In this document: positions 17,400 through 46,479 of the stretch, one piece after another
Layout of the letters: each line of letters opens with the position of its first letter
Numbering within the stretch: position 1 is the first letter of the stretch
DNA from: Acanthochlamys bracteata
Lineage: Eukaryota; Streptophyta; Magnoliopsida; Pandanales; Velloziaceae
Direction: 5' to 3'
Length of the DNA: 64,000 nt
Assembly (NCBI GenBank): GCA_019914995.1
Contig: CM034138.1
Location: 4,402,001-4,466,000, forward strand
Notes under the pieces: model-generated
Seen by the model: only the letters and a program-made list of their open reading frames with translations
The model's database searches: none
What the model was told of the DNA's origin: nothing
Translations under genes and position numbers: made by a program

Positions 17400-19900
17400 T
17401 GTTGCGATGATAAGCAAGTACAGGATTGAAAAGAAATGCATGACTATGGCAAGTAAGGTTGGAGGTGCGGATCCCTCGAATGTCCCTTACTTGTGTAGTG
17501 TACTAATGATGGTGAGGCTCTAGTGGGAGAGACAGTAATTGCTGCTTGTGACAAGTCGTTAACTTGCTGGAGTCAGTTCCATCAAGCTTATGGCAAATGA
17601 TGGAAGGGAATGCATCATCAGTAAGGTACGTTTTGTTTTTTGTCTTACGAAAAATTTGTTATTTGTAGGATAATTAGATGACCTGGACTGCAAGACTTGC
17701 GGTGGAGGCGAGATCATTGAGGTTATCAAGAACGGGTAGAAAAACTGAAGGTTAAAATAATCGATTCAAATCTTTATAAAGTGCGTGGGGTGACACGGAT
17801 GCAGTAGATGCTTGTGTTGTATTGGGCAATATTGAGGATATCATACGAGTGTGGCACCTGAAATTTGGGCACATCTCGGAACGTGATTTAAAGATCCTCA
17901 GTGATCGAAAGTTCCTAACGGAACTGTCCGATATAAAGTTGTCATTCTGCGATGAGTGTGTCACCGGTGAGCAGCACTGTGAAAGATTTGGAGTCATTTT
18001 TAGTTGAAAGACAAGATCGACTTGTTTCACTCGGATTGGAACTTATATGTTTCTAATCCGAAGGAAGTCGGATGTCTTTGAGGTATTCAAATTCTTTAAA
18101 ACCCGGGCGGAACTTGATTCAGCAGTAGAATTAAGTCCGTAAGATGCCTATGGTATGCTGAAGATGTTTGGGGTATCACCTATGGGATCTCACTACCCAT
18201 ACGGTTATCTTCAGCAGGGATGTCATCTTTGCGGAGAACCAATTGCAAAGAGTGACTGAAGGCGATGATGTAAGGGAGGGGAAGGCATCACTCCTAGCGG
18301 TGATCACATCGGTACTGGACGAGAATGATAGGAAAGACGATCCTAATCTGGAGCCTGAACCAACTGATGAGCACATGGAAGAGGATGGAGTTCCCAGGCC
18401 TACATCTCTTAGGCGTTCCACTCGCAAGAGAAACACACCTGAGAGGTATGAGGACTATTTTATGAAGTTATCTCAATCTGTATATTGCTTATTCACAGAA
18501 GAAGGAGAGTCATTTTCTCTCAAGGAAGTGCTAGAGAGTCCAGATGCGTCTCTGTGGATGAAAGCTATGCAGGAAAAGCTTGAGTCGCTTCATAAAAATA
18601 GGACATGGGAATTGGTCCCTCTACTCCAAAGTCGTAAGACTATTGTGAATAAATGAATCTACAAGATCAAGTGAGGCAGGAATGATCAAGTAGAATGGTA
18701 TTGTGCTCAGCTGGTGGTGAGTGGCTACGCCCAGATGGAAGAGATCGATTTTGATGAGATCTTCTCTCCAGTGCTACGTTTTAATGTGGTCTTAGCGCTG
18801 TGTACATCGTCGGTTCTCCATCTTGAACAGCTCAATGTCAAAACGATATTTTTGCACGGGGAGCTTGAAAATGAGAAATATATGGTCCAGCCAGAAGGCT
18901 TTGCTGTGAAGGCAGGGAGGATCTGGTTTGTCGGTTGGCCAAATCTCTTTTTGAGCTTAAGCAAGCACTATGATGTTGCTATAAGAGATTTGATTCTTGT
19001 ATCGGGAGCTTTGAATACAGCAAGCTGGTCTTAAACTCTTATGTGTACATCAAGAGATTTGAGGGAGGTGAATTTGTCATCTTGCTGCTGTATGTGGATG
19101 ATATGTTTGTGGCAGGTTCAAGCATGGGTCGCATCCAATAATTGAAGGCTCAAATGGCTAGTGAATTCGATACCAAGAACTTGGGGCCGACAAACAGAGA
19201 ATCCTATGGATGCAGATATGGCGAGATAGAGACAATAGAGAGATTCGGCTATCTCAGATTAGTTATCTGAGGATGTTGAAACGGTTCAACATGTATGGTG
19301 GTAAGTCGATATCTACCCCACTCTCTATTAGTCTTAAACTATTCTTTTTATTATCCCCTAGCCAAGAGAAAGAGAAGATAGGGATATCTCGGATACCATA
19401 TGCATCAGTAGTGGTATGCCTAATGTATATCATGATTTGCACTCAGCCTGACATTACAAATGCAGTGGAAGTGGTAAGTAGATTCATGGCATGTCCTGGC
19501 ATTGAGCCTTGGAAGGCGGTAAAAAGGTCCTTGGTATGTGAAATGAACCTTGAATGCTTCATTGTGTTACAGAGGATCTGGATTTATTGTCAAAGAGTTT
19601 GTTGATAGTCTATGCAGGTGATTTGGATAGGAGGTTGTTTTTAGTGGGAGCATTGATATGCTCAAAATTTCTACCAAAGGTAACCCTGCGGATGCCTTAA
19701 CTGAGGCGGTAACTCTTGACATATTTTTTGTGTTGTAGATCTCTGTATGGAATCACAATGGAGAACAGCATTGGAAGCCGAAAGGAATCACTTCAAGATA
19801 GCAATGGAACCGGACGAAGATAGGCAACGATATGAGGTAAATGGAAGTCAGCTAGCATACGTGCTAGCCCTGCTCCTCTCAATCGTACCTATTTTCAGTG
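17400..19900 (+). pseudogene. Copia gag-pol remnant
   Basis: Fragments in transcription order: a gag-like piece at 17440-17610 (SKVGGADPSNVPYLCSV); a GAG-pre-integrase piece at 17820-18005 (VWHLKFGHISERDLKILSD and CDECVTGEQH); a gap where the integrase core should be; the integrase-to-RT linker at 18168-18460 (SLRRSTRKRNTPERYEDY); then reverse transcriptase at 18520-19190 (PDASLWMKAMQEKLESL, RTWELV, FDEIFSPVLRF, and YVDDMFVAGSS near 19090). The RT/RNase H linker follows at 19210-19560 (ISTPLS, YASVVVCLMYIMICTQPDI). Several stops and frameshifts separate the pieces. The YVDD catalytic motif survives. No functional polyprotein can be made. Confidence 0.85.
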
Positions 19901-22860: not shown

Positions 22861-22888
22861 TGTGGGGGTTAATAACGTTTGGTATGCT

Positions 22889-22903
22889 CACATGTCACCT
22901 ACC
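22889..22903 (+). promoter_or_regulatory. bHLH E-box next to MYB AC-element in the DFR promoter
   Basis: CACATG (22889-22894) and ACCTACC (22897-22903) are two bases apart, about 180 bases before the ATG at 23080. A bHLH E-box beside a MYB AC-element is the kind of site used by MYB-bHLH-WD40 complexes on anthocyanin genes. Function here is inferred. Confidence 0.6.
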
Positions 22904-22952
22904 ACTTATAACATGAACACAAGCAAAAAGTAAAAAGCTATCAATTTTCTGT

Positions 22953-22960
22953 TATATAAA
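22953..22960 (+). promoter_or_regulatory. TATA box of the DFR gene, upstream copy
   Basis: TATATAAA lies about 120 bases before the ATG at 23080, leaving a leader of plausible length. Confidence 0.55.
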
Positions 22961-23613
22961 CACCTTTATATATAAGAATCCAAGTTAAATAGACGAATGC
23001 AACTGATTGAAGAGTATACACTTAATTAGCAAAGGAAAACAAATTTGATCAGTTTATTTTGAAGTATTAATTGGAAATAATGGGAGTAATGCAGAGAGAT
23101 GATGATCATGAGGTACAGATGAAAGGTCCTGTGGTTGTGACCGGAGCTAGTGGATTCATCGGTTCATGGCTTGTCATGAAACTTCTCCAGAAGGGGTACA
23201 CTGTTAGAGCTACTGCAAGAAATCCTAGTAAGTTTAACGTACATCTCCATATGTTTAGTCTAAAGCATGTATACTTAAATTAGTCTAATTTGGTTTCAAA
23301 TAGCCAAGTGTGATCACGATCAAAATTAGCGTGCTATTCATCAAGATCAAAATTATGTGAGACATCGATTAAGGTAGCGTTTAGAGTACTTTTCAACTAT
23401 ATTTTATTCTAATTTTTTATTTCACGTTTCTCAATTAATTTTATAATATTATACATATTTTTTTAAAATTTAAAAAGTACTACAAAATTTCACGTCGTAA
23501 GTTTTTGTTCATATTTATTTTTATTTTTTTAAATAAAAAAATAAACCTCATTTATAAAAAAAAATTCAAAAAATTATATTTTATAGATACTCCTAAGCAT
23601 CTCCTAAGTCAAA

Positions 23614-23615
<2 letters not shown>

Positions 23616-23658
<43 letters not shown>

Positions 23659-23849
23659 TATGGAGGGATAAGGGCACTCTCTTTTTAGGAATATTTTCTT
23701 TCCGATTTATGGTTGGAATGACTTCCAAATTCAATCTCCACAGTTAAATATGAAGAACTATGAGTTAGAAACATTCGCATAAAATTTCAGCTCGATTGGA
23801 CCACGAATTCACCTTCATCTGGTCACTTGATCAAGATAACAGAAATGAT

Positions 23850-23883
<34 letters not shown>

Positions 23884-24087
23884 ATCATTTCTGTCATCTT
23901 GATCAAATGAAGGTGAATTCGTGATCCGATTGAGCCAAAATTTTATGAATATATTTTTAACTCATAATTCTTTATATCTAACAGTGGAGATTAAATTTGA
24001 AAATTATCCCGGCCATAAACCGGAAGAGAGTGCTCATAAAAAAAAAATATCTCTATCTCTCCCATATATATATATATATATATATAT
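23616..24087. mobile_element. Palindromic foldback element flanked by (TA)n, copy A, in DFR intron 1
   Basis: Between (TA)n tracts at 23616-23661 and 24064-24087 lies a roughly 400-base near-palindrome (23662-24063). The left arm runs from GGAGGGATAAGGGCACTCTC to CAGAAATGATACAATATA; the right arm reads TATTGTATCATTTCTGTCAT onward in reverse. The centre is another (AT)n at 23852-23880. The arms contain the same motifs as the copy at 49705-50120. Non-coding. Location between TA repeats is like the Micron-type MITEs of rice. Confidence 0.8.
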
Positions 24088-24089
24088 TT

Positions 24090-24940
24090 CTCCATCATTT
24101 TGAATACAAGTCTTAATTAATAGTAACATGATAATAAGGAAAATGCATTCATCCGACCAATTTGACTTAAGCAGTAGCGACCTACACTTTGCTAGTCGCT
24201 GTTGTATACAACAGTGGCCAGTTTGACTTAGTTGCTGTAGTTAACAGTGACCTGTTCTATTTGGTCGCAGTTGCCTTTGTTAATAGCGACCGTGCTGCCC
24301 AGCTGGTCAAAGACTTCTATATATCCATATCTCACTCATTATAGATTCCCTCCATCCGCCACAAGAAGAAAAACAATGAACATTTACTTGAAATACAACT
24401 TGTCAATCGCAACTTCGTGGTCGTTTGGGATTTCTTAAAAAATAAGTTTTTAGAGAAAATAAAATTTGACGAATTTTTAAAATAAACTTGCTATTTTTCA
24501 AATTAAAAAAATATACATATGATGACCTATAACGTATAATTATTTATATCTTTCAATTTTAAGAAAAAAATCTAGAGCTCTATAAAAGCTTCTTAAAAAA
24601 AATGTAAGCCTGAAAAAGAGATGGAATGAGTTGGTAAAAGCTGCGCCAAACATTTCCGAACTTTAGAGCAAAACAAAGGGAAACCACGCTACACATGCAT
24701 GTATAACTGTCGGTATATATGTAGTCCTGTCAACTCTTCAATACCTTACATCTCTACATGTATAATCTTAATCTAATACAACTAGCAAACAAGACTGTAA
24801 TTTATAAGTCAATTAAGTTGCATGCATGGATAAGTTTTAGATGAATGTTAGAATGTTCACGTACCGGTACCACCAAACCGTTATTTCATTAGCATCAACA
24901 TGTACAAAGGTATACAGCAATCAGTCTACCATTTTCCTTC
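24090..24940. other. Intron 1 / intergenic stretch with GCGACC motifs
   Basis: Around 24160-24300 the motif (G/T)AGCGACC and its inverse GGTCGC recur among TTTGACTTA repeats, like the subterminal repeats of some plant DNA transposons. The rest up to the second promoter copy is AT-rich with nothing recognisable. Confidence 0.35.
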
Positions 24941-24944
24941 AGCT

Positions 24945-24951
24945 ACCTACC
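24945..24951 (+). promoter_or_regulatory. MYB AC-element before the second DFR exon 1
   Basis: ACCTACC recurs about 120 bases before the degenerate exon 1 copy at 25070, with a TATA-like ACTATATATGC near 24975. This suggests that the promoter was duplicated with the exon. Confidence 0.45.
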
Positions 24952-25069
24952 AGTTTTTCTTGTCGTTAGCTTGTACTATATATGCAAACACTCAAAAGAT
25001 CTAAGAAAGCAGTTACGTCTAGATAAAGAGTTCTTGAGTAGGGAGAACTAGCAAGCTAGAAATCAATCA

Positions 25070-25218
25070 ATGGAGATTGTAGTGAGGAGAGATGACGGGA
25101 TGTAGAGATCAAGGGTCCTGTGGTTAGTACTGAGTTAGTGGATTCATTGTTTCATGGCTTGTCATGAAGCTTCTCCGGCCCGAAATGTACGCTGTTAGAG
25201 CTACTGCAAGAGATCCTA
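25070..25218 (+). pseudogene. Duplicate, broken DFR exon 1
   Basis: ATGGAGATTGTAGTGAGGAG and what follows align with exon 1 at 23080-23227: GGTCCTGTGGTT, TAGTGGATTCAT, TCATGGCTTGTCATGAA, GTTAGAGCTACTGCAAGA and GATCCTAG are shared. Here there are in-frame TAG stops, a one-base deletion in the VTGASG region, and the donor GTAAGT has become GCGAGT. It lies only about 170 bases from exon 2, the normal distance, so it may be the original exon 1, with the intact copy 2 kb upstream the duplicate. Confidence 0.85.
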
Positions 25219-26798
25219 GCGAGTCAATATTTTGCGTATATGATCATTAAGTTTCGTTCACAGAAGAAGGAAAAAGGTCCATATATGTTCTTGCGAGGAA
25301 TTGATTAATTGATCTATATTCTGATGCATAATATGGCTGAAACTATGCATCTTCTAACGTAAAATGAATAAATGCGCACTTGCAGGTGATGTGAAGAAGA
25401 CGAAGCCTTTGAGAGAGCTGCCTGGTGCAGAGAACCTGCTGAGCTTTTGAAGAGGGGATCTCAGTGAGGAAGGCAGCTTTGATGAAGCCATACACGGTTG
25501 CACTGCTGTTTTCCATGTTGCCACTCCTATGGACTTCGAATCAAAAGACCCAGAGGTGTACTTCGCAGAAATCAAAAGAATAAATAAAATAAAAAATCAA
25601 TAAAAGCATTGGAAACTAAATGTCTGTGGTTATATGTATGACAAAATTTGTTTATTCATAATATACAGAATGAAGTGATCAAGCCCACAATTGAAGGTAT
25701 GTTGAGTATAATGAGAGCTTGCAAGAGGTCAGGCACAGTCAAGCGCATCATTTATACTTCCTCTGCCGGAACAGTGAACGTCGAAGAACACCAGCAAGAC
25801 GAATACGATGAGAGCAACTGGAGTGACTTGGAATTCATCCGCAGAGTCAAGATGACCGGATGGGTAAAAATTATAATAAGATATATACTCAAATTAGTAG
25901 TGTCCGTAAAACTGTTTATAGTTTGGATCTATATTTTTTCTTGCTTAATTGCAGATGTATTTCGTATCGAAAACACTGACAGAGAAAGCAGCGTGGCAGT
26001 ATGCAAGAGAGTACAACTTGGATTTGATCACAATCATCCCTACACTTGTTGTTGGCCCCTTCATTTCAACAGGAATGCCTCCAAGTCCAATCACAGCATT
26101 GGCTCTCATAACAGGTTCGAATTTGTTTAACTTCAGCTTTTATATTGAGTTGTTCTTTCATTTCTTTGTACAAAATGAAATTATTGGTATGACTTGTGAA
26201 TTACTTATTGATATCGTTTGTCGTACAGGAAATGAAGCACATTACTCAATACTGAAGCGGATTCAATTTGTTCACTTGGATGATTTATGTGAGGCCCATA
26301 TTTTTCTCTTGGAACATCCTGAAGCTAATGGAAGATACATATGCTCTTCATATGATGCTACTATCTATGACTTAGCCAAGATGATCAAAGCCAGATACCC
26401 TGAATACAATATTCCCCAGAAGTAAGTGAAGATGTTTCAAAAATTATAAAGTCAATGTTGTTCTTATTTTAGTTCAGCTTTACTTGTTTTACCAATTTCA
26501 CTATGTTGTGATATGTAGGTTTGAAGGAATTGACAGGAGCATTAAGCGGGTTCACTTCTCATCGAAGAAATTGAATGATCTAGGCTTCAAGTATAGGTAC
26601 AGTTTAGAAGGCATGTTTGATGGAGCAATCGAGTGTTGCAGGGAGAACAAGATGATACCAAATCAGACAACTGATCAGAAGACCAAGACTTCTAAGAACA
26701 AAGATGATCGTCTTGAGGCGAAAGAACCAACTTCTATGGCAACTAAAGGGACAATGAATTGGGTGGAAGAGAACTGGAAGAGGTTGCTGCTTAACTAG

Positions 26799-29600
26799 TA
26801 TATTACAAGATTGTTGCTAATTTACTTCGATACTGTTAATCCCTTTCCTTCCCATTTACATGAAATAGAAAGATGTTTTCCACTATTAACAGGACTTCTC
26901 AGATCCAAGTACTGAATTTTTTATGTCAAACCGTTCAAAACACTTAACTAGCTGTTTACATGCCGAATTACCATATTGATACCCATCCTTACGTCATTTA
27001 AGTCGGTGGCAAGCAATAATTTCTGGTGCCTTTGACATTGCTTTTTCAGAAATTAACTTTTTAATTTTTAATTTTATATTTTTTAATACACCTTTTATAA
27101 GTATTTAGAGAGTTTATTTAAAATTTAGAAAATATAAAAAAATTTATGTAGTAAAATTTTTTTATTATTTATTTTTATTATTTTTTAGGTAAAAAAGTAA
27201 AATTTATTTGTCAAAAAAGATAAAAATACTTTCCTTTCTAAAAAGTTTCATCTCAAAAGCACTCCTATACACCTTATTATGTGGCAAACGAATTAACAGA
27301 CTGAGTTTAGATCAACCAATATAGTAATCGAGTTAAAATTAATCAATACTAATCCAATCCATATATTTATATAGATCAAAATTGTCAATCCTAACTCAAT
27401 CTATTTAAAAATCAAACTAAATTCGAATCGACCTATTTAATAATTAAAAATAAGTAAAAAATTAATTAAAATAAATAAACTATATATATATATATATAAT
27501 TAAAGTTTAATATTATTATTTTAAGTATTTTTAATTATTAAGTAATATATGCTATATAAATAATTATATGGTTAAAAGAGTTATTCGAGTCAACCCGAAT
27601 TTGAGCCAAATCTGTTTAAATTTTCGTGTCCAATTCCAATTGACCAAAGAGTGATCCGATCCGGTTAATGTTAGACCCTAACTCGATTTTTCCTAACTCG
27701 ACTTTTCGAATCGATTTTAGATCAGATTTGAGGGTCGAATCATATATTCTCACTTTTAAATTTCTTATAGTTTGGACGGAAAAGCTTATGAGCTTTGAAG
27801 CATGTGTGGGTTGAACATGAAAACGTTGGAAAGCCAGTTCCATCGCTTTATGCAATACTTGACGGTGCTTATGGGTATACTTTTTATTCTCCAAAAACTC
27901 TCACTTTTTTCAATAATTTTTTTATAATATTTTATTAAACTTTTTAAAAATTAAAAAGTACATATGAAATTATATTGTACAATTTTTATTATTTTTTAAA
28001 TAAAAGAATCAAACTCATTTTAAAAAAATCTCTAAAATATATTTTATTTTAAAAACTATTATCATAAGCAATTTCAAGATGTTCCCTTAATACGCTACAA
28101 ATAGTTTGGCTGGAACGCACACCTTAACGTTGATGTGTTGCACTCCAGTTGGATATTAGACAACAATTTCGATTTGATTTTTGCATACTTAATTCAGGGC
28201 TTCCTTATTACTCCCCCCAAAAAAATGAAAGATTTAAAAAATAAAAGAAAAAAGAATTTAGGGCTTCCTTAAACTATTATCTTTCTCCTGTAATGAGAAA
28301 AGATCAGACAACCAGAGTTTATTGAAGTAACTAGGCTACATCCGTATTGAATTTGTTTTTCTAATCACATTTTTAAAAAAGAATATTTTTCTACTCACAA
28401 TTAGGTGAGAAAAAATAAAAACACTTTCGATTCAGTTTTTAGCTCCGAAAGATGACAAAAGTTTCAACTTAAAAGTTGAAACTTATTTGACAAAAATTAC
28501 TTTTTTAATTTTTTTAAAAAAAATAGCTATAAATTTTTTTTAAAAAAAAAAAGCGCGGTGTATTTGGATAAATTTAACTTTTTTTGAAAAAATTAAATAA
28601 AATGTTTGGTAAAAAAGAGCTGAAAAGTTAAATAAAAATATATAAATAATTAAAATATCCTTAACTATATAATAAGTTATATATAATTTATAAATCCTTT
28701 TTATGTATTATTTATTTTTTTAATATTTCCTAACACTAATAACAAATTCATGAATATTTTGTAATAATTAATATTATAAATTAATAATTAGTTATAAACA
28801 TGTAACTAAATTAATTTATAGATATATTTATTATTATTTATTTGTTATGAAAAGTAATGAACTAGTAAGTTGTAAAATGTAAAATATGCTTTGCTACTAA
28901 ATACTTGCAAAAGTTTATGAACGTCTACGTCATCATTTATTAGAATATTTTTTTGTTTTTATTTTTTTTGGTGAGCCTCACTAGAAGTTTGAAATGTTGG
29001 AACATCTAACATTAAAGGCATAGCATAAAAGCATTATGATAACAGAAACTTAATCTACTCAAAGCTCACAAAAAAAGAATTAAAACAAAAATCTCCTGCA
29101 ACATGTTGAAATCACATAAATCCATTGGACATTTCATTCTTAAGGGCACCATCTAGTGGATTTGCAAAGAAAGCAAGAAGAACAACCAACAAATAATGAA
29201 TCCGAAACTAATAGGTACTGTTCACTTGGACTACCAACACCTTCACATGCTAAATGAATAAGAAATATATAAACCCACACTCACAAGCCAAACAAACATA
29301 AAAATGAATGAAATTTGGAATTATTCAAGATCTATTCACTAGACAATTTCAGTCTTCTAAAGGAAAAATATAAGACCCCAACAAATTCATTAACATCTGA
29401 GGTATATAATGCTGACATATCTTAATCACACATTCTGCACAGAAAGGAGTATATTGTGTTAGCTATATAAATACAGAATCTAGTATATGGATATGTTATG
29501 GACAAAAAATAAAACTAATCCTTCATTTGGCTGGATGCTTGAGGGAAAAAGATCCCCTACCATCCAAATTCATATTTTTGATATGGAGCAACCCACTTTT
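26799..29600. other. Spacer downstream of DFR, AT-rich, transposon debris
   Basis: Begins with the DFR 3' UTR. Around 27270-27690 is a transposon-like segment (TAATCCAATCCATATATTTA, then CGACCTATTTAATAATTA; inverted relative to 8936-9060, with further GACC/GGTC motifs to about 27670). A short (TA)n lies at 27481-27499. From 27900 to 28850 the sequence is almost pure A/T with MITE-like patches. No gene is visible. Confidence 0.45.
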
Positions 29601-29624
29601 TTGGCTTCTCAAACTACAACTACA

Positions 29625-31172
29625 CTAGATTTGATGCCAGAGCTTCTTCAAGACTGTCTGCATCAAACTCAGCCGTTAAAAGTCTATCAAGTCTCAGCTT
29701 CATGAAGCTGCAAGAAACCAAGAAAGAAAAATTATTTAAGAGGCGTGAAAGCAAGAAACTCAACAATGACTTACACAAGCTTAACAAACAGCATGACTTT
29801 GGTGGGATGACTTAGCTAGAAATGCATGCAAACTAGTAAAAAAAAATAAAGAATCTAGCATTTCTACCTACACCGAGCCCATAATTTTCTTTATAATAAC
29901 AAAAGCATGACCTTTGTTTTTCAGAAAAGCAACTCAAAGAGGACAAATAAAAGTAGATACAAAATCAAACCAAAGCTAGGCAACAACAAATCAATATATA
30001 TTTCGGTAAACAAGACAGAAAGCAATTGAATAGAAAAGAAAACAACAATAAGAAAACAAGGTGAAATGGAAAGGCAAAATCTGAAGGAATGCATAATATT
30101 GAAAGCAGAAGAGTTACTATTAAAAGATGTGGAAGTAAATTTAAAACATTGGGATAGGCACTAGATAAAGACAACATAAAGCAAAAAGCTGTGAAGTGAA
30201 ATAAGATTGCAGAAATTATATAGGACAAGGGTACCATAAGAAACTAGAGACATGAAGAACACAAACAGAAAAATCTATTAATCATAAAAAAATTAAGAAA
30301 TGCTTCAGAAAAGGGTAGAATCTAATTGAAACAAAATTCTCCATTCATTCTATCAAAATGCCTTAGAACAATCATCTTGATAACCTATAAGAAAGTAATA
30401 AAAGAAAATGTGCCTACTTATCAGCAAGCCTACTGGTACAATATGATTAATCCATGCTTTAAAAAATTTTATATTGGAGAAAGGCTATAAACCCTCCGTC
30501 ACAAGTACTGAGGCAAATCAATATTAGTTGTAGGAAATGTCAAGAACTACTCACCTTTTTTATGTGCTTCTAGTCAACGTTATAGATTTCCACCCTGCAG
30601 GTGATGGATATCCTGACTGCGCTGCTCCATAGCAGAATTTTCACCTGCACGTTAATCATAAGAATGAAGTTTAAGAAATAACCATAAGAACAATCTGACT
30701 TGATGCATACCAGTGAGAAACTATAACAAATCAATTATGTACAGAAATCTTAAACCTAGAGAAATCTAGATGAATATCTCAGTGGAAATCTCGAACCTTA
30801 AGAATGTGGAGAGAAGAGCAAAATAAGGAGAAAGTGGTGAGAAAGAGAATTAGAACCTGTTTAGAGTCGTATATTTCTTCAATTCTAAAATATAAGGATA
30901 TCTTTCGGTACTACACTAAAAAAACTTTAAAATGATCACAAAAATCTATCAAAATTGAAAGGATAGTAGCACTGCAATTGATTTAGTTTAAGGAGCATCA
31001 AAATCTCAGATTATTAGAGAAGGATTTACATCACTGATTCGGTCTTTCATCAATAGCAATAGAATTTGAAACGGATTAAGAGAGAAGAAGTGTCAATGAT
31101 CGAAAGAAAGTGAAGGGAAACGAAATACTCACAAGCTAGAGCAGCGGCGAATGAGATTGAGAGAGCACCCAT
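29625..31172 (-). pseudogene. Small three-exon gene of unknown family, apparently broken
   Basis: On the minus strand ATG at 31172 opens MGALSISFAAALA (exon 31133-31172, donor GTGAGT). Exon 30555-30644 has acceptor GTGCAG and donor GTGAGT and continues CENSAMEQRSQDIHHLQGGN, L, then TAA and, two codons on, TGA, then LEAHKK. Exon 29625-29707 (acceptor TTGCAG) reads FMKLRLDRLLTAEFDADSLE and on to LASNLV and a stop. The two stops are each one C-to-T change from CAA and CGA, and joining exon 3 needs one extra base. The conserved-looking tail suggests a roughly 70-residue coiled-coil protein that has decayed. If the TAA is real and used, a 34-residue product remains. I do not recognise the family. 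A G/C-rich promoter-like stretch lies upstream (31190-31370). Confidence 0.4.
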
Positions 31173-31389
31173 TTTATGAAGCGAAACGAATTGCGGATAA
31201 GGTGGCGAACAACTAACTCCGTTTTAGTAGTGGTGAAGAGAAGGAGTGGAGGGTGCGAAAATTGGCATCGGAGAAGAAACACGCTCGCCAAAACAAGGGA
31301 TAGCTGGCGGGGTGGGGCGGAGCCGAGCGGAGAAGAAAATCCTAGGCATCGGGTCTGCGTGAGAGAATGAAAGAAATGGCTGGACACAG

Positions 31390-32010
31390 ATATATATATC
31401 TGTATAATTTATGAACTTAGCAGGGTCACGAAAGACATTTTTGACACCCAGAAAAAAGTCACGCGAGAAGTTTTCAGAAAAATTACTCAGAGTAATTTTT
31501 TTATTTTCACTTATAAATCAAAAAAATTATTTATAAATTATTCATTCAAATATTTGAATATTACTGTTTAAAATTTTTTTTAATTTATAAATTGAAAAAA
31601 ATCTATCCAAACAACGCCTAAATTTGATAATGAGTGCGTTGGTAAAAAACTTCAAATAAATATTTATTTAGAAACTACTAGGACAGTCTCTCTATATAGA
31701 TAACAAATATTCTCAGAAAATGGAATTCATATATAATAAAAATTTATTAAAAAAAGTTATAAATATATAATAAAAATTTGAAAATATGCCCACATAAAAT
31801 CAAGGGGGCCGTACAAAAGCTCACAAAATTTTAATTTTATTAATATAGATTTGAAAATCTTTCAAATATATTTTTGTAGCTGAACCGGTAAGAATAGTGC
31901 TTTTTTATTTAAAAAACATGTTAGAGTCCTACTAGGTGAATTTATCTTACAAACTTTTAAATTTTGTTTTTAAGTGATGATCTAATGTGAATATGTGCGA
32001 TTGAATCTAA
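31390..32010. other. AT-rich spacer
   Basis: No gene is seen. 31480-31620 has inverted AT motifs ending CCAAACAACGCC, like a degenerate MITE end. Confidence 0.4.
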
Positions 32011-32252
32011 AGGCGTGTTTACATACTCTTTCAAACTCATTTTTTTTAAACTCACTTTTATCATAAAATATATTATAAAATTAAAATAAATTATTTTTAT
32101 TAAAAATTTATTTTTTAAAATTTAATGTTAAAACTTACGTATAATATAAAATAATTATAAATTATTATTTTTTATTAAATATTTTTAATTTTTAATTTTA
32201 TTTTTTAAACTTATTTTTAAAAAAATAAATTTATCCTACAGTAAATACGGCC
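32011..32252. mobile_element. Tourist-like MITE, related to the copy at 8075
   Basis: The left end AGGCGTGTTTAC and inverted right end (GTAAATACGGCC) are flanked by TAA on both sides (32008-32010 and 32253-32255). The interior is AT-rich with TTTTTATTAAAAATT-like motifs shared with 8075-8341. Confidence 0.65.
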
Positions 32253-32255
32253 TAA

Positions 32256-33589
32256 TGCGATCCATGTGAACTCTATTGTAATCGAATGTGACCCGTACGA
32301 TCTTATTTTATTTGCAGGTGTGGCATTGTCGCACTTGGCTCATATTAGTGACCATATGTTTTGCGAACTATTGTATCCGAGTACGATCGTCTGTGATCGT
32401 GCCACTAATGCGATCGACACATGAATGTATAGACTAGCAATACAAATTCTCAGTAAGTCTCTTTTTGGAATAAATTTTAAAAAAATCTTTCTTTGGAACT
32501 CAAGTTCAAATCTCTTAAACGAGAGATCGCTATTTTACCAATTAAATTGCAACATAAATATGTCGAAGTTGCCTTTGCGTCCTTATGTGATCCTACGTGA
32601 ACGTGTTTTTTTAAAATTTTATACAATTTTATTTTCTTCAATAAAGTTTTACTATACTTTTATTTTGTTCATTTTTTTATACATGTAAAAGACATAGTAT
32701 TTTTTTGAATCGATATTTATTCGAACTTGTTTACTTATGCATTTAAAATTTGACTATATAGTTAATAAAAATCAGCTTTAAGTTTTAAAAAGCGTTAATC
32801 TCTGAGCTAAAACTAAATAGAAGATATTGTTATTTTTTATCATCCAAACGTGACTTTAAAAACGTAACTTTGAAAGAAAACAAATTCGAAGTGGATGTAA
32901 TCTACTTGATCAAATAACCCTTACGAGAACTGCAGACAGCTAGGAGAAATGGCTCATAGAACTTAGGTCCGAAGACCCGGTACAAATTACCACACACAAG
33001 TTCCTTCCGTTATCAACATTATGACGGCTAGAATCACATATTGCTCATCGTAGATGATTCTTCTTAAATAAATTCAGAGCAAATGTAATAAAAACAAGAC
33101 CTCTTCTTCCCTGCTTAGAAGCATCAGAAATCCCAGAACAAGGCACTGATGCACAAAATCAAGTCAGGACTTGCTAGCTCAATAGTTGGTAAAAAACATA
33201 AGTCACATCTCTAAATTCCTGAGACTTCAAGAGTAAAATTTTGACCCTGGCTATTAAATTATGAGTAGTAGGTCATCTCTATGCATCTTTCCAGATGACT
33301 TTTCTTCAGTTTGTATAATCGGAAACTTCCTACATCCTATAGGATATCTGCATACCAGTAGATACAGGTAAACTACATGCTAGCTAATAGCTGTTCAATA
33401 ACTTACAATTTGTCCATTTCTCAAAGCACGAAAGAGTCTTGAGAGGAGTTCGATGCTACAGCTGCTATCTTTCTTTGGAATTAAATCTGTTCCAAGCTTC
33501 CTGTGAGAAAAAGTGTGAACATCATAATTGCAGTATATCTGGATTCTTATGCCTGAATATTCCCAAAAAAGCAGTAAATGCCTCAGTAT
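32256..33589. other. Spacer between MITE and the JAC1-like pseudogene
   Basis: No gene recognised. The part after about 33060 is of more gene-like composition and may be 3' flank of the minus-strand JAC1-like gene. Confidence 0.4.
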
Positions 33590-36500
33590 GGTGAGGACAA
33601 GGGGGTAGAATATAGACTTCAAATTCATGGAACTCTTTAATTTTTGCCTAGCTTAATTGCAAAAGCACTTGCTCTCAGCAGCAGTCTCAGCGCTCAAGTT
33701 TATGCCAGAGCATTATAATAGAGCAAATTCATAAGCTAAAACTGCCAAAAAGCTGAGATCATCAAACTGTCTTCTCTTTATGGATTAAGCCTTTCCTAAA
33801 CACTAGTGGTGGCATTTTCCATAGAGAATACATTCAGTATACTATTAGGATGAGCTTCTTCAGCAAATGTGAACTATTCCTAGGGAATTGCATAACCAAG
33901 TGCAGTGCAAAAAGTTACTTGTGAATTACAATGCACCCCAACCATAATAATGTGATTTAAAATTTCTCATCAACCTAATTGTCTCACTCCAGCTGAGTTC
34001 CATGCTTCGAAGAGTTAGTATTTCCATGTTTGAACACATAAGCACGAATATATGAATATTCACTTTAGCAATGATACTGCTTAGAATACTAAAATTAAGT
34101 GTGTCTAGCAGCGCAATCAACCAAGATCAAACCTTAAAGGAGATAAAAAAAACTTTCTCACAAATGTACTCCTCTTGGATAGTAGCACCCCTCTGCTGCA
34201 GCTTATCTGGATGGACACACAGAGTTGCCTTCCTGTATGCGTTCTTTACAGCAACAGCTGTTATGATCTCAGTCAATGGTGTTGGCTGCCAACCACTATC
34301 ATGCCCAAGTATCTGGACACATAAACTTGCTGAACGCCTGAATTTCAATGTAAATGACACCATCTGACACATATAATAGCAGATTGTTGGACGACCTCTC
34401 TAGAATGAGCCGCCAACCTCTTAGAATACCAGGACTAAGGAAATAAATTAAGACATTACTTTGGCATTGTTGTTTAAAACTTGGTAGTCCAAAAGAGCTT
34501 ACAAAGTTTTGGTGTTCATAATAGCTTTATCCAGGTTAAGCCATGTTTATGTGCACATTGACAGCTTTTTCCTCGGCCTCAGTGCTGCTTTCCTTTCAGT
34601 GACTTCCTGCTCAGGGACGTCTGTAACTATTTTGGACTTCTTTCTCACTGCTGATTAATTCCTAAAACCATTCATCTTTTATCCATTCTCCAGCTCCAGG
34701 GTTCAAGGTATGAGGCAATCTAACATCCTTCAATCGAACTTCCTCATTAAACTTAGAGTCTGCATCAATTCCCTTTGTCTTTTTGCTACTTTCGTAACCA
34801 GGTTTTAGCTCCTTTGCACCTCCATCCCTGAATCACCAAGAGCCACAGCTTCTGGAACTTCTTTTCCACTGCTTCCATTTCCTCCCAGAGAAACCGCAGA
34901 GCTGCAGTTGTTATTGTTTGTCAAGCTATCACTATCACCAAGCTTCTTCTGCCTTTGAGCATTCTCTCTGTTTTTTTTTCCCAATCGGCTTTTTGGCAGT
35001 TGTCAGCCTAGCTTGAGCCTGCTCCATTACTTCTGGCAGCTCCAGAAGCTGCAGCAGCAGTAGCAGCGTCCTGCTGCACATCAAGAAAGCTAGGGGAATC
35101 CTTTTTTGAATACTCAGCATGCAAACAAACTTTTGTTACACCATCTCTTGGCTGCTTATGATGATTTCTCTTAGCTGATGAAAACAAAATCTGATCATCT
35201 AATCCAACTTTTGAGTTGATGGCACTCCTGTTGCAGAACCTCCTTCTTGATTAAACAGGGAGGAGTCTTGATGGTGGTGGGACTTGCTTGGGACGAATCT
35301 GAAGATTTACATCTGAGATTGTTACATAAGTATCAGTATAACAAATATCCCACTGGAAGTACAATAATGGCTACACGAGTATGAATAAGACTTGATGGCA
35401 GGAGTATCCTCGGTTTCACATTATTTAGTAGCTACAGATGTCTTATCTTTATGCTCACCTACTTAACTTCGTGACTAGAAACAGAAGATGTTTCTTTGAC
35501 CAGTTCTTCCTGCTTTACATCACTGTTTCCAATATTAAAACCTGCATTCCCACCAAGGTTGCTCAGACCCATGTTCAATGAAGCATCAGCATCTCCACTA
35601 AGTAAATTACAAGAGGAATCAACAAAACAGGTATATCCTGAATTGTCATGAGCTTGAGGAATCGGCAATTTTTTGGAGTTGTCCAAACTTCTGCTATCTT
35701 TCCTTCGCCATCCAATATTGTGAGAGATACTGTTCAGAAGTGGACCATTAACTGAAGTGTCAGAATTCAATGAAAAATGTTGCTTATTAGAGGATACAGA
35801 GTTCTCCATGCAAGGGCCACTTTCTGTAGAAGTAGTTACTTCTCTTGCATAGTGGTCAAAGAAAATTTCTGAATCCCTGCTGTGAAAAAAAATAGATAAA
35901 TAAACAATAAGAGGTAAGCATTAACAATTACTGACTCTAATGAAGAACCTATGGCATCACAACCAAGCAGTAAACAACATAAAACCCAGCAAGAAGTAAG
36001 AAGAAAGCAAGTCATGAAATGTGCCATACTGCACATAGCTTACACCAAAACCAAATATTTTGGAATAAAATAAACAGGTCAAGAATTTGCGCAACACAGT
36101 CAAACATGGAAGGAATTTTAAGAGTATTTGGAACAGGGTGCAAACATGGAAGGAGTTTTAGCAGGCATATGGTACATGGCATCTTGGAAAAAATAGGTCA
36201 CAGATGATTTACAGCACAAGCTCCTACAGACCTTGTAAAAAGCCTATCCAAGCAATAGGACCTGAAACTCTCATGTTTCCTCCAACAGCAGTTTTTCCCA
36301 TCCATGGTTTTCCATGTAAATTCCCTATGTATCTATCGCTCTTCTCTTCATGTGCACGGATTTATGTTGATTATCTACTTTACCGTGCATCATCAAAAAT
36401 TATTGATAGGTTTAGGGTGCGTTTTGGATTGCTTATGAAATAGAGTTTTTCTGAAATGAGGGATATTTTTGTCTTTTTTAAAAAACGAGCTCTTTTTTTT

Positions 36501-38812
36501 TTACTTCCAAAAAAATAATAAAAATATGCAATAAAAAGATCTCTTCGTAAAATTTTTTTACATTATCTAAATTTTTAAATAAATTTTCTAAACACTTATT
36601 TTTTTAAATATGCATTGAAAAACATAAAATGGAGAAAAGTTAAAGAGCTGTTTTTGGTATGCACTACCAAACGCAGCCTTATAAGCCATCTAACGATTTA
36701 CCACATCAAGATGCTTGACAAAAGGATGGAGGCACAAGCTTTTGTGGTCCATAGAAGCGAGTAATAGCGGTATAATATAGTAGTTGCACAAAGAGATGTT
36801 TGTACTACTATTAAGTGGAACATCCATCATGATCATGCAGCTGTTTTAAGATTTTTCAACGACCATGCAGCCACTGCTATCGCATATTAGGTCATTTAAT
36901 GATGCTCTAACCATAGCCTAGTTCTTTATTTTTAAAGCCAAACTTCGCTGCTCTAGACAATGTAGGTACATCTCTATCTATCAATGTTGCAAACAATGGA
37001 GCGGGTAAGACTTAGCTTTGCATCAAGTTCAAGAGAATGCTCCAAGCACTATTTGGGTAACAGATGCTTATACACAAGCAGACCCCACTTAGTGGGACAA
37101 CGCCTATAGTAGCTGTTCTTCTTGGTGTATGCATATGTCAAAACCAAGTATTAATAAACCTATTGATAATCCATTATATACCTTTTCACATACACCTTAA
37201 ATAAGCCGTCCACCTTCAAACACAAATTTGGGGGTGGTTTATCTCTCCATATCCAATCATGCAACCAAGAAAAAACTAAATGAGGTACAAAAGAGTTAGC
37301 ATAGGTTTCTCGTCCAAGATTAGCATTTTTAAAGCCAATTATTTATTACATGATTTTTTATTTCTCACACTACGTGGTATCCATAACAGCATCTTCTCTT
37401 TTCTAGTATAAATATTATACTTATAACGTACATGTTTGCATCACTAAATTCCTAAGAGTAATAGTATACTCCCCCTACAAACTCCCTATGAGATACCATC
37501 TAGAGAGTTTTAACTTTTTAAAATCCCAAACTTGAATCATGACCTAATCATCACTTTAGCTATAAAGACTGCAATTGAACTCAATTCCACATATAACTCA
37601 TGTATCTCAAAATTTGCTCCCGTTTTAACAGTTCAAGAATTCAAAAACATATATGATACAAACTTCAAAATGAGTCAAAATTTGGATCATTTTGTAGATC
37701 CTAAAGTTTAGACCACGATTGAAGTACTACATTAATTTCAAAAAGGTCATTATCATATCAGAAATTGCAAACAAGCTCAAACAAGCTAGTAACTGCAGAA
37801 GATGGCACGAATCACCATCTACGAACTTAGCAACAGTTAATTGCTTCCTAAAAAAATCATTTTAGCAGCTGACCTGGTAAAGTATTTCTTTATTTTGGAT
37901 GGTAAATCCAACACCATCTAACTATCAAATAATTAAACAAAACAAAACAAACAGTCATGTGTATTCATGAAGTCTAGAAACGTCTTGAAATTCTGAACAA
38001 CAGAGTGAGAACTTCTCATAGAAACCCCCTCATTTTAAGCTACATATAAAGAGATAAACAGAAAAAATTCACCTCAATGAATCTTTACCTAATATTCTCA
38101 CAAAAACCTAAAACTAATACCCTCAAAAGGGACAAAAGAAAATTATTTTACCTGGCCAAGAATTTATATTAACTTGACATAGTAACAATCAAAATTTTCA
38201 GAATCTAATCAAATGAACAACCAACAGGTATCACCAAAATGAGTCATGTTTTTTGCAAAATTGATAAAGTAAATCTGTTACATTCAAACAGGGATGCGTC
38301 CTTTTGCTTCACCTGTAGGAATCTCATTTCCAACAATTAATCAACAAATAAAACCAGAACTTCTCTACAGCTTAAGAGCTATATGGATTTACCTTTTACA
38401 TCCTCCCCTAACAAAATTCCGTTTTCCATCAAGAAATTAAACCAAAAGATTTAATTATTCTTTAAAAGAAAAATTAAACTCACTTGGGGTGCTCCTGCTT
38501 CGAAACCCGTTGCTCTTCTTCCTGCTCTACGTGACCAATCGCAGCGAGCTCCTCGTAAGACACACCACTATCAGCACTAAAACCTCCAAAAATTTCATCA
38601 CAATCAGTGACTTCTCCGTCGGCAGTGATATCGATGACCGCAGGTGCCGGAGGTACATTGAGAAACGGAATATAGCAAGTAGTGGAGAGTCCCCCAAATA
38701 TCTCCCCGTAGAATTCATCTGAGGGCTTCGGTGGGCCACCGAACACGTCAGTATACCGCGCTGCTGTTCCACTTCCACGACTCACCGGCTTCTTTGTTGT
38801 CGTTCTCTCCAT
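33590..38812 (-). pseudogene. JAC1: JAC1-like (auxilin-type J-domain) pseudogene
   Basis: JAC1 is a clathrin-uncoating-type J protein needed for chloroplast accumulation movement. Exon 1 (38484-38812) starts MERTTTKKP and holds YTDVFGGPPKPSDEFYGEIF and DCDEIFGGFS, the acidic motifs of this family. Exon 2 (about 35459-35876) joins in frame (KDSEIFFDHY) but ends EVK-stop at its donor. The next exon (35312 down to about 34560) keeps IRPKQVPPPSR, AEYSKKDSPSFLDVQQDAAT and EVMEQAQARLTTAK, but in different frames with stops; four bases are missing between AASGAA and EVMEQ. The J domain (34350-34130) keeps [20 protein letters not shown] and [12 protein letters not shown] with HPD intact, but its helix I region and the end after CEKVF are scrambled. 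Likely a decayed gene or paralogue. A MITE sits in the long first intron. Confidence 0.75.
36415..36678. mobile_element. Tourist-like MITE with TTA target duplication
   Basis: The left end GGGTGCGTTTTGGATTGCTT and inverted right end (TGCACTACCAAACGCAGCC) are directly flanked by TTA (36412-36414 and 36679-36681). The interior has the A/T-rich 'AAAATGAG..TTTTTACTTCC' arrangement seen in other short elements of this window. It lies in intron 1 of the JAC1-like pseudogene. Confidence 0.75.
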
Positions 38813-39465
38813 TGCTGGGTTTCTCCGTTCCGTCTCTCTCACTCTATACATAGCAGGGAGAGAGAGACGAGAGAAAAATGAAGTGTGGAGTTTAGCAGGC
38901 AGCTCCACAGCTGCAGTCAGCCAAGCTTTTCTTATTTTTATTTTAACAAAGCATCTTTTAATTTTATTTTGCAATTATGCCCAAGATAAATCAATTTAGC
39001 ATGTTCGATAACTAAAAGACGAAATAGTCATAGTTGGTAAACAAGGATCGATTTTGTTAGCAAGGTGCAGAATATATTGTCAAATATTTCATATGATTCT
39101 ACGAGATCTTTTTTCCTTCAAAGTAACGAATTCTAACCAATTAAAAAAATTATCTGTTAAGAAATTATTTTAATTCCATTAGAAATAAGAATATAGAATA
39201 TTACACATTTAATGATCAAATAAAATAGAGATTCAGCAACTAAAAATGAATCAATTCTTTCAAATTATGAGTAAATTCTATGCTGTAGAATTATTATATT
39301 TGTAATATTACTAAATAGAAAACCTCAGTTTTAAAAAACATCAGAAGAAGCCTTTTTTATCAAAAACTTTTTTTTTTCTAACAATTGACAATAACCCCTT
39401 AACCACTGTAGCCATGTTTTACATGACGTTTGATATGACGTTTGATATAAGCCCCGTTTGATATA
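38813..39465. other. Promoter-side spacer of the JAC1-like gene
   Basis: 38820-38940 is C/T-rich on the plus strand (GA-rich leader on the minus strand), fitting a 5' UTR. Beyond that it is AT-rich without features. A short direct repeat TGACGTTTGATATGACGTTTGATAT in two halves lies at about 39424-39448. Confidence 0.4.
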
Positions 39466-41439: not shown

Positions 41440-42330
41440 ATAGTTAAAGTGAAAATTCAGCCAATTATAGCGAGCTGCAGCATTAGAATAACTCATAAAG
41501 ACTTCAGGATTTTCTTTTTAATCAATACACATGCTGCATAATGGGCTAGGGGGCTATCGGCCTCTATTTCCGGAATAGTGTCCAATATCGCCAAATATTG
41601 ACGGATGGTGGGTATCGATAACGTCATTACGTGTCTTTGACGCATTATCTCTGTCGTGTTACCGATATGCTCCTTTCCAGATGATCCGGAACACTTTCGC
41701 TTCCTACCACTACTTCCTGATCTTAGAGGATTTTGAGATATAGAGAAAACTGTTGAAAGAGATCACTATCAGTTACTATAGGAGAGGGAACCTGAAATGC
41801 AGGTTGAAGTTCTTCATTAGATCGAACGTCGTCGCTATCTCCGCTGCCTTCCAAATCCGATGGGTTTGAAGATGCAGTCTTCTGTTGGACTTGTGATGGT
41901 GCCCAAGCCCGCAAACCATTGGCAACAAGGTCATCAAACAACACCGGGTACCATTGCGATATATAGATAAATCTTTACCATTAAATTTTTTGAACTTAGG
42001 GTATGCCTAAAGAAAGAAAGAGTTCATTAATTCAACAATTAATTAAATAATCATAATACATCTATACGATTAGACAAAAATATCTTATTTTTTTCTTCCC
42101 ACCACTCGTCATCTGAAGCAATTGTGTTGTGAATTTAATCCCATCCCAAACCAGACTCTACACGAACCAATGATTTATAATTATTGTAATCACTCTTCAT
42201 ATCATCCCAATAATTTTTTAATTGTTTTCGCCCAACCTCCTGGCCATAAAATTCTTCAAATAATGTTTTGATATTTGCCTAGCCTTGCACATTAAAATGG
42301 GTTCATGGCCTATTCCTCTTAGATATCTCT
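41440..42330 (-). pseudogene. Myb/SANT-like ORF of the Harbinger element
   Basis: Minus-strand pieces: at about 42170-42100 GLGWD, stop, IHNTIASDDEWWEEK; at 41990-41940 YPKFKKFNG; at 41944-41723 LFDDLVANGLRAWAPSQ and SDSDDVRSNEELQ-like acidic text; at 41740-41480 SGRKRKCSGSSGKEHIGNT and IPTIRQYLAIL. These are, in order, the Myb/SANT-like domain, linker, basic region and C-terminal helical part of Harbinger ORF proteins. One stop and frame changes break it. In intact elements this protein guides the transposase to the nucleus and to DNA. Confidence 0.75.
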
Positions 42331-42339
42331 TGTTCACAA

Positions 42340-44150
42340 TATCCCTAAAAAATTATTATATAGCCCAGTAAGGACAAACATACAAAAATATACCTCAAAA
42401 TTCATTAATTGTTAATAAGAATAACCAACAATTCCTCAATAATCATCATAGGGCAGCAAGGCTGAGCATAGACAGCACCACCAGGCAAAAATCTCTCAAA
42501 AAAATCATATGGCAGCAAGGATAGCATAGGCAACACTATCACAAACCCTCAAAATTTATCATAGGGCAGTAAGGCTGAGCCTAGGCAGCACACCACAACA
42601 ACTCAAAAAACAGGCTAGTAAGGAAAGAACCACATTATAAGGCAAAAAATCCTCAAAATTCATCATAGGACAGTAAGGCTGAGTCTAGACAGCACCACCA
42701 CAACAACTCAAGAAACATGCCAGTAAGAAAAGAACCACATTATAAGGCAAAAAACTCTCAAAATTCATCATAGGGCAGCAAGGCTGAGCATAGGCAGTAC
42801 CACCACAACAATTCAAAAAAATAGGCCAGTAAGAAAAGCATCTAAGTTGAGAATTGTATAAGGCAAAAATCCATTCAAAAGTCATCATAGAGTCAACAAG
42901 AATAGCTAATAAGGCAATACTACCACAATAACTAAAAACAGACCAACAAGAATACCCAACATTCGCTAAAAAAATCATCATAGAGTTAGCAAAAATAAGT
43001 ATAGGCAACAACCAATATATTTGGCTAAGATAAGTGTAGCATCCATTCTACTATTATGATATTATTAACTATCAATCTAGCTAAACATCTAATTCAAAAT
43101 AACAATTCCTGCTATGCCATCCAAAAGGGACTGTAAGATTATAAGGCAACCAAACATCTCATTTTAGTAATGTATAAGACAACAAAACCCTTAGAAATCA
43201 TCATATGGGCAGCAAGGATAAGTATAGGCAACAACCAAATATATTTCGCTAAGATAAGTGTAGCATCCATTCCACTATCGTGATATTATTAACTATCAAG
43301 CTAGCCAAACATTTAATTCAAAGTAACAAATCCTGACATGCCATCCAAAATGTGCTGCAAGATAATAAGGCTACCAAACATCTCATTTTAGCAATGTATA
43401 AGACAACAAATCCTCATAAAATATTATAGGGGCAGCAAGGTTATGCAACAATCCTCAAAAATCCCGATAGAGCCAAGTAGCGCAAGTTTAGGCAAATATA
43501 CATCAATATTCATTACTTGCCAGCAAGGATAGCCAACGATCTCTCAAAATTCATCATAGGGCCGCAAGTGTTTTTATATGCAACACCACTTCAAAAACTA
43601 AACCAAACCAGTAAGGATAGCCAACAATTCCTCAAAAATCATCAACCGGCCAGTAAGGACAAGTATAGGCAACATATCTCAAAAAGTATTTACTTGATAG
43701 TAAAGATAACCAACAATCTCTCAATAATCATCACAGAGCCAGTAAGAGTGTTTATAGACAACACCACTTTAAAAATTAAGCCAAACTAGCAACGATAACC
43801 AACTATCCATAAAAAATCATCAACAGGTAAGCAAAGACAAGCATAGGCAAATATACCTCAAAATTCATTAATTGCCAGTAAGGATAACCAATAATCCCTC
43901 AAAATTTATCATTGGGCCAGTTAGGGTAAGTATAGGCAGCAACCATATATATTTGGTTAAGATAAGTGTAGCATCTATTTTACTATCATGATATCAATAA
44001 CCATCAAGTTAGCCAAATATCTCGTTCAAGGTAACAATCTCTGCTATGTCGTCCAAAAAGGGCTGTAAAGTAATAAGGCAACCAGTAAGAATACACAAAA
44101 ATCCCTCAAATTTCATCAAAAGACCAGTAAGTACCAAACAATTCTATCAG
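42340..44150. repeat. Complex minisatellite inside the Harbinger element
   Basis: Variants of CATAGGGCAGCAAGGCTGAG / CATAGGCAGCACCACC recur every 45-100 bases from about 42445 to 44130 (for example 42447, 42558, 42665, 42770, 43558, 43640). A longer unit of about 150-180 bases (GCTAAGATAAGTGTAGCATC to GCCATCCAAAA..GCTG.AAG) appears three times: about 43022-43190, 43250-43410 and 43957-44095. Units are diverged and partly deleted, so the array is old. It has no coding capacity. Confidence 0.8.
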
Positions 44151-45204: not shown

Positions 45205-46479
45205 GTCTTTGGACTTTTCAGGTCCAAAGAGCTACGCATAGCATTTCAAAAAATCTAAAATATAATAATTTATATGTTGTAAATAATTATATATATAAAT
45301 TTTAAAAATTAGAAATTATTTTTAAAAAAATTTATATTTTCAAAAGTTTTTATTTCAGCTATCATTCTAAATTGCTGAAAATGTAATTTATAATTTTTAT
45401 TGTAAAATTTAGTTCTTGTTTTAATTTCAATTTACGAGCATTTAGAAGTGATTTTAAAATATTGTTTTAATAAAAAAATATTTTTATCATATTTTAAAAT
45501 AATTTTATATTTTTTATTATAAAATAATAAAAATAATTTTTTTTACTTCTATTACCTCGAAAAACGTTTTATTAATTTTTATATTCAATCAATTAAGATT
45601 CGTTTGACACTACTTTTGAATTTTTTAATTTTTAGTTTTATATTTTTAATATATTTTTTATAAGTTTTAAAAAATTTATTTAAATTTTTAAATAATATAA
45701 AAAGAATGTAAGTCATAAAATTTTTTATTAGTTTTTTAATTAAAAACACAACTTATTTTAAAAAATTTTATTTTAAAAAAAAATTTTCGAACGCCCCTAC
45801 GAATAGCCATGTGCCGTTTCAGGCTCAAGCAATTCAATCCGTTAGCTAGAAATAGTGATAGCATTTGACGGGCGTTGAATGGTCAACGTAGTTGGAGTCC
45901 CATTAAGGGCCAGTTTTGTATTATTTATAAAAAACTTACTTCTATATTTTTGTTATTTTTTTAATTTTAAAAAATTTCTACATATTTTAATTGTTTTTTA
46001 AAAGTGAAAATAATTAAATTATATATTTTATTATTAAAATATATGAAATAATAACTTTATGTATATAAATATATTTATTAATTTTATTAGTTTTTTAAGC
46101 TAAAAAGTAAACTTATTTCTAAAGAAACTTATAAGATTTTCTTACACTAAAAATAAAATTCAATATTTTGAAAAATCCCAAAAAATTCTAATTTTATCTT
46201 GGACAGGCCGACAGAATAGCCCACTTAATACAACGATACTACAATTCCAAATAATACCCTTATGCAGGGGTAGCTTTTGGGATCAAACTCGGTACATTTA
46301 CATGTTCGGTCTATATACTAGTACTGCCAGTTTTACTGATCTTGCACACCAAGCAAGGGAGCTACCAAACAGCTAAATCGAACTCCTCTTGAGTCCCTCT
46401 GAACCCTTGAAAAGCACAAAAAGGAAAAAAGAAAAACCAAATCCATCGAAGAAGAAGATCATCAGTATCAGAATCAGAG
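45205..46479. other. AT-rich spacer and promoter of the proteasome gene
   Basis: 45600-45800 resembles a degenerate MITE (TTCGTTTGACACTAC at the left, TTTCGAACGCCCCTACG at the right). The 120 bases before 46480 are mixed in composition and should hold the 5' UTR. I see no clear TATA box. Confidence 0.4.

Follow-up and report, generated by a model that had tools for sequence, protein, structure and literature searches.

An in-frame stop codon in a DFR gene

The presence of an in-frame TGA in a DFR gene that seems otherwise complete raises the question of whether the gene has been lost, how recently, and at what cost to the plant. The locus lies in a window of 64,000 nucleotides (the whole stretch that was analysed) from the Acanthochlamys bracteata assembly, which comprises 195.5 Mb in 557 contigs; we call the DFR locus of the window C13. 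A preliminary description had joined six exons over 382 codons, final stop included, with TGA as codon 71. Both statements agree with the assembly: all five introns have GT-AG borders, and a position check places the TGA at 25448-25450, where it is real in the assembly. Between the exon 1 used in this model, here E1A, and exon 2 downstream lie 2.16 kb.

23080..23227, forward strand: E1A, distal exon 1, 148 nt, open from the ATG to the GT donor
25386..25555, forward strand: exon 2, 170 nt, contains the TGA
25448..25450, forward strand: in-frame TGA, codon 71 of the model joining E1A to exons 2-6; TGG in the C14 copy
25669..25863, forward strand: exon 3, 195 nt
25955..26114, forward strand: exon 4, 160 nt
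26229..26421, forward strand: exon 5, 193 nt
26519..26798, forward strand: exon 6, 280 nt, final TAG included

The TGA is the sole internal stop of the joined model. We compared the site in the copy on contig C14 (see below), the DFRs of Panicum (8fem) and Vitis (2c29), and the ketoreductase 9m3k. All four have the Trp that had been described as conserved, encoded by TGG in C14. The C13 model lacks the uninterrupted frame of a plant DFR, being interrupted at codon 71; the C14 frame is open. Because the reading frame around it has been verified, the stop is no chance pattern, although it may be a base-calling error. The motifs reported as kept are indeed found in the joined model: GxxGxxG (within E1A), TSSAG, the substrate-site Asn, and YxxxK. 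We take the glycine motif to be the NADPH motif of DFR, the Ser-Tyr-Lys set its catalytic residues, and the Asn its substrate site. They are also present in the C14 copy, and the glycine motif is broken in a second first exon of C13, E1B. Position 133 of DFR is treated in PMC11356453.

Exons 3-6 match DFR structures very strongly (Panicum 8fem, E 3.3e-108; Vitis 2c29, E 2.1e-107), followed by the ketoreductase 9m3k (E 2e-101) and anthocyanidin reductase (E 2.6e-55). In sequence, both these exons and the C14 protein resemble DFR more than they do ANR, CCR, or vestitone reductase. The far better DFR scores of exons 3-6 led us to reject a DFR-like paralogue (ANR or CCR), and the presence of introns an intronless retrocopy. 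A Pfam scan of three short pieces of the window gave no family for any of the three, and all 24 families that NCBIfam listed for the C14 protein scored under their cut-offs. Despite the strong match, the window locus differs from the Panicum and Vitis DFRs in having a premature TGA at the conserved Trp, a decayed native exon 1, and a second exon 1 upstream.

An open DFR copy in a collinear region

The preliminary description proposed that the stop would block anthocyanin and proanthocyanidin synthesis from this locus, and left other DFR loci to be looked for. We searched the genome for them. With exons 3-6 as the protein query, the 60 candidates scored yielded 43 matches; among these 60, only the C13 locus and C14 exceed 50% identity to exons 3-6. 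The DNA search with positions 24900-26900 returned three matches (the query itself, C14, and E1A), and no second haplotype of the C13 DFR locus was seen in this search of the assembly. The C14 gene (C14:3332732-3331105, minus strand) shares the six-exon structure of the window locus, with GT-AG introns, and its frame is open over 374 codons plus a stop. Three more stretches of the window, within 33374-38904, also run collinear to this part of C14, with the relative orientation unchanged. C13 and C14 therefore look like a homeologous pair, of which C14 is the apparently intact paralogue within the collinear block; their dS over exons 2-5 is 0.418.

The C14 copy presumably carries DFR function. 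The restriction of the block to "this locus" was thus well worded, and a block across the whole plant does not follow from the stop, because the homeologue on C14 is open. A further fragment of 56 aa, on C10, matches anthocyanidin reductase best among PDB entries, and the genome may thus also have the proanthocyanidin branch.

Two first exons

The description of the gene as "otherwise intact", with no other lesions, did not survive closer inspection. It had skipped a nearer exon 1, E1B, which lies directly upstream of exon 2 and has decayed. The features around the two first exons are as follows.

22885..23079, forward strand: putative distal promoter, from a pattern scan; weak match to the C14 promoter
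23655..24075, no strand: palindromic MITE-like repeat between the first exons, with two long inverted arms
24835..25069, forward strand: native (proximal) promoter, collinear with the promoter of the C14 gene
25070..25218, forward strand: E1B, native exon 1, decayed

The frame opened by the ATG of E1B ends at codon 12, and conserved pieces run on in the two other frames. Relative to E1A and the C14 exon, E1B has two one-base gaps and an in-frame insertion of 3 bases, Val replaces a Gly of the NADPH motif, and the donor site reads gcgagt where E1A and C14 have gtaagt. The stretch 24835-26907, with the promoter, E1B, intron 1, and exons 2-6, aligns to the C14 DFR at 74% over 2127 columns; the alignment of E1A to C14 is limited to the exon and a few flanking bases. 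E1B is therefore the exon 1 native to this gene. E1A is an additional, homologous copy that has its own start codon and donor and precedes the shared exons. Third-position differences among 47 are nearly equal (14 for E1A-E1B, 13 for E1A-C14, and 13 for E1B-C14), which makes the exon-1 duplication about as old as the split between C13 and C14.

Between the first exons, faint tblastn matches at 24642-24743 were considered as a remnant of exons 2-6 from a complete upstream copy. They were rejected because the best score was matched by 46 of 300 shuffles and is within chance, as were exon-by-exon DNA scores in 20 of 20 comparisons. The MITE-like repeat has at least 166 matches in its own genome, with 40 of 1537 candidates scored.

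Counted from the ATG of E1A, TATATAAA lies at -127, ACCTACC at -183, and CACATG at -191, which gives the putative distal promoter an E-box and a MYB-type element near -190. Such elements are of the kind bound by MYB and bHLH pigment regulators. Over 25 bases the distal region matches the C14 promoter (E 0.010, a score reached by 9 of 1000 shuffles); its similarity to the native promoter of E1B is not significant (137 of 1000 shuffles as high). Promoter homology of the distal region is a weak lead.

Constraint and decay

The coding sequence of C13 was compared with that of C14. The dN/dS is 0.093 in exons 2-5 (bootstrap 95% CI 0.052-0.157), 0.136 in the conserved part of exon 6 (0.038-0.376), and 0.075 in 35 core codons of E1A (0-0.237). 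Values for whole exons are higher where the ends are variable (E1A 0.302, exon 6 0.321, exon 4 0.189). In the core of exon 1, the changes unique to each copy at codon positions 1, 2, and 3 number 2, 0, and 4 in E1A, 1, 0, and 5 in C14, and 3, 5, and 1 in E1B; E1B departs from E1A and C14 pooled (Fisher one-sided P 0.006, two-sided 0.0075). The 13 N-terminal codons, which are poorly alignable, give the opposite of the core (E1B 1, 1, 5; E1A 2, 2, 2; C14 0, 1, 0). Disabling lesions are concentrated in E1B, which has four of the five when the lost Gly is counted (P 0.0013) and three of the four when only frameshifts and the donor are (P ~0.008, calculated by hand). These figures indicate that the E1A core and exons 2-5 stayed constrained and that the E1B core did not.

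We also simulated neutral decay at a lineage distance of 0.21, in 4000 runs with substitutions only. At most one stop arose in exons 2-6 in 1.2% of the 4000 runs, and the probability that all 18 splice bases remain unhit under neutrality at this distance is 2.3%. Given the low dN/dS and these simulations, exons 2-6 appear to have been maintained through most of the period after the two loci separated, during which E1B was decaying. A neutral exon 1 retains its ATG, frame, and donor in 15.7% of the simulations, and the open frame of E1A taken alone would prove little; the constraint on its core would prove more.

A recent or segregating loss had been suggested. Recency finds support in the dN/dS of 0.093 and the neutral simulation; the TGA itself may be fixed, segregating, or an error. 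Where C14 and the three PDB chains (8fem, 2c29, and 9m3k) all agree, the window model carries seven missense changes (D48N, V134I, A180T, L216P, Q235R, D320G, and K332N), or eight changes with the stop at codon 71. Where the window model agrees with all three chains, C14 has four (V31I, P61R, V174M, and T177S). Eight changes against four may be a weak hint of relaxed constraint on the window copy. Relative-rate counts are uneven with Panicum as reference (15 vs 6, chi-square 3.86), and not with Vitis (13 vs 10) or 9m3k (10 vs 12).

Explanations for the C13 locus

The explanation we consider probable is that a duplicated promoter and exon 1 replaced the native ones, and that the resulting chimaeric homeologue was disabled recently. 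It starts from observations: the sequences, their collinearity, the lesions, and the constraint. The promoter and exon 1 of C13 would have come to be present twice, the copies diverging at about the time the C13 and C14 loci did. A transcript from the distal copy would be spliced from the GT donor of E1A to the acceptor of exon 2, giving the frame of the preliminary description. Because such a transcript can splice straight to exon 2, E1B would have become dispensable and could decay, with E1A and exons 2-6 under purifying selection; this order of events is the likely one. A later nonsense change in exon 2 would then have disabled the shared coding part, translation ending after 70 residues. 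As four further exon junctions lie downstream of the stop, nonsense-mediated decay would be expected to act on the mRNA. The homeologue on C14 would have stayed open, presumably covering DFR function. The case for E1A as a working exon would lie in its core codons, because dN/dS over the whole of E1A is 0.30 and its frame could survive neutrally at the 15.7% rate given above.

The two first exons in tandem also suit a different history, in which E1A is all that is left of a full upstream DFR copy after deletion of its exons 2-6. The downstream copy would then be an ordinary pseudogene, damaged in exons 1 and 2, and the two would never have formed one transcription unit. The frame of E1A could have survived by chance under this history (15.7%), yet exons 2-5 are constrained (0.093) despite several lesions in the native exon 1, the E1A core is constrained too, and remnants of exons 2-6 between the first exons are at chance level (46/300), although old ones could have eroded. 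We regard such decay of a tandem pair as somewhat unlikely. The high constraint, together with the TGA being the sole disabling lesion in E1A and exons 2-6, would also fit a TGA that is either miscalled or still segregating, in a gene that functions in other individuals. Against this stand the seven missense changes (including L216P and D320G) compared with four in C14, a weak hint of relaxed constraint, and we think this account quite unlikely.

It is highly improbable that the stop is bypassed through splicing and a shortened DFR still made. Exon 2 has five in-frame AGs downstream of the TGA, but the nearest costs 23 codons and each costs at least 23 residues. Frame-restoring exon skipping was rejected: the frame shifts when exon 2 (170 nt) is left out by itself or together with exon 3, and leaving out exons 2-4, which is in frame, loses the catalytic residues. 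We give low probability to a bolder proposal, that C13 was a working DFR gene whose swapped promoter and first exon had it regulated unlike C14, with a young, segregating TGA that alters where or when pigment is made. If the stop does segregate, the C13/C14 pair would allow a test of the role of one DFR copy. Under the explanation by first-exon replacement, the locus is for the most part a common case of duplicate loss, unusual in how its first exon evolved.

Relation to other DFR genes

Broken DFR genes are already known. PMC4993499 describes a DFR null allele of Brassica rapa in which a palindromic insertion brings an in-frame TGA, linked to loss of purple colour. The likeness is a DFR coding sequence broken by an in-frame TGA; the window differs in that a single codon is changed and a second copy is open. 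DFR pseudogenes occur in Dracaena cambodiana clusters, according to PMC13078043. There, too, non-functional members stand alongside other DFR genes, but the Dracaena clusters are tandem arrays of whole genes, whereas in the window exon 1 alone is doubled, with the open copy located on a different contig. The accessible text of PMC12027299 excludes pseudogenes and says nothing further on them, and that of an onion paper (PMC5146992) gives no DFR stop. A limited literature search found no closely similar case in which a copy of exon 1 persisted after the native exon had decayed. The apparent replacement of the first exon is a more interesting point than the stop.

The locus corrects a likely over-reading, as the stop alone does not predict anthocyanin loss in a genome with a second, open DFR. 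It may also illustrate, on a small scale, how a gene is kept alive by a copy of its first exon during the decay of the native exon 1. It is also a caution that a gene model can look intact by skipping a decayed exon.

Other features of the window

About 6.5 kb (26907-33374) separate DFR from the next collinear block of the window, compared with about 145 bases in C14; the difference is due to an insertion in C13 or a deletion in C14. At 41771-44084 lie tandem repeats whose periods range from about 89 to 224 bases; they are also found at the far end of the examined C14 stretch, in the opposite orientation relative to the gene blocks. A retroelement polyprotein fragment lies at 18162-18656 (SH3_retrovirus, 26.2 bits, just under the cut-off of 27). 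A proteasome alpha-subunit gene (Pfam PF00227 and PF10584) is represented by two exons, at 46411-46869 and 50641-51120.
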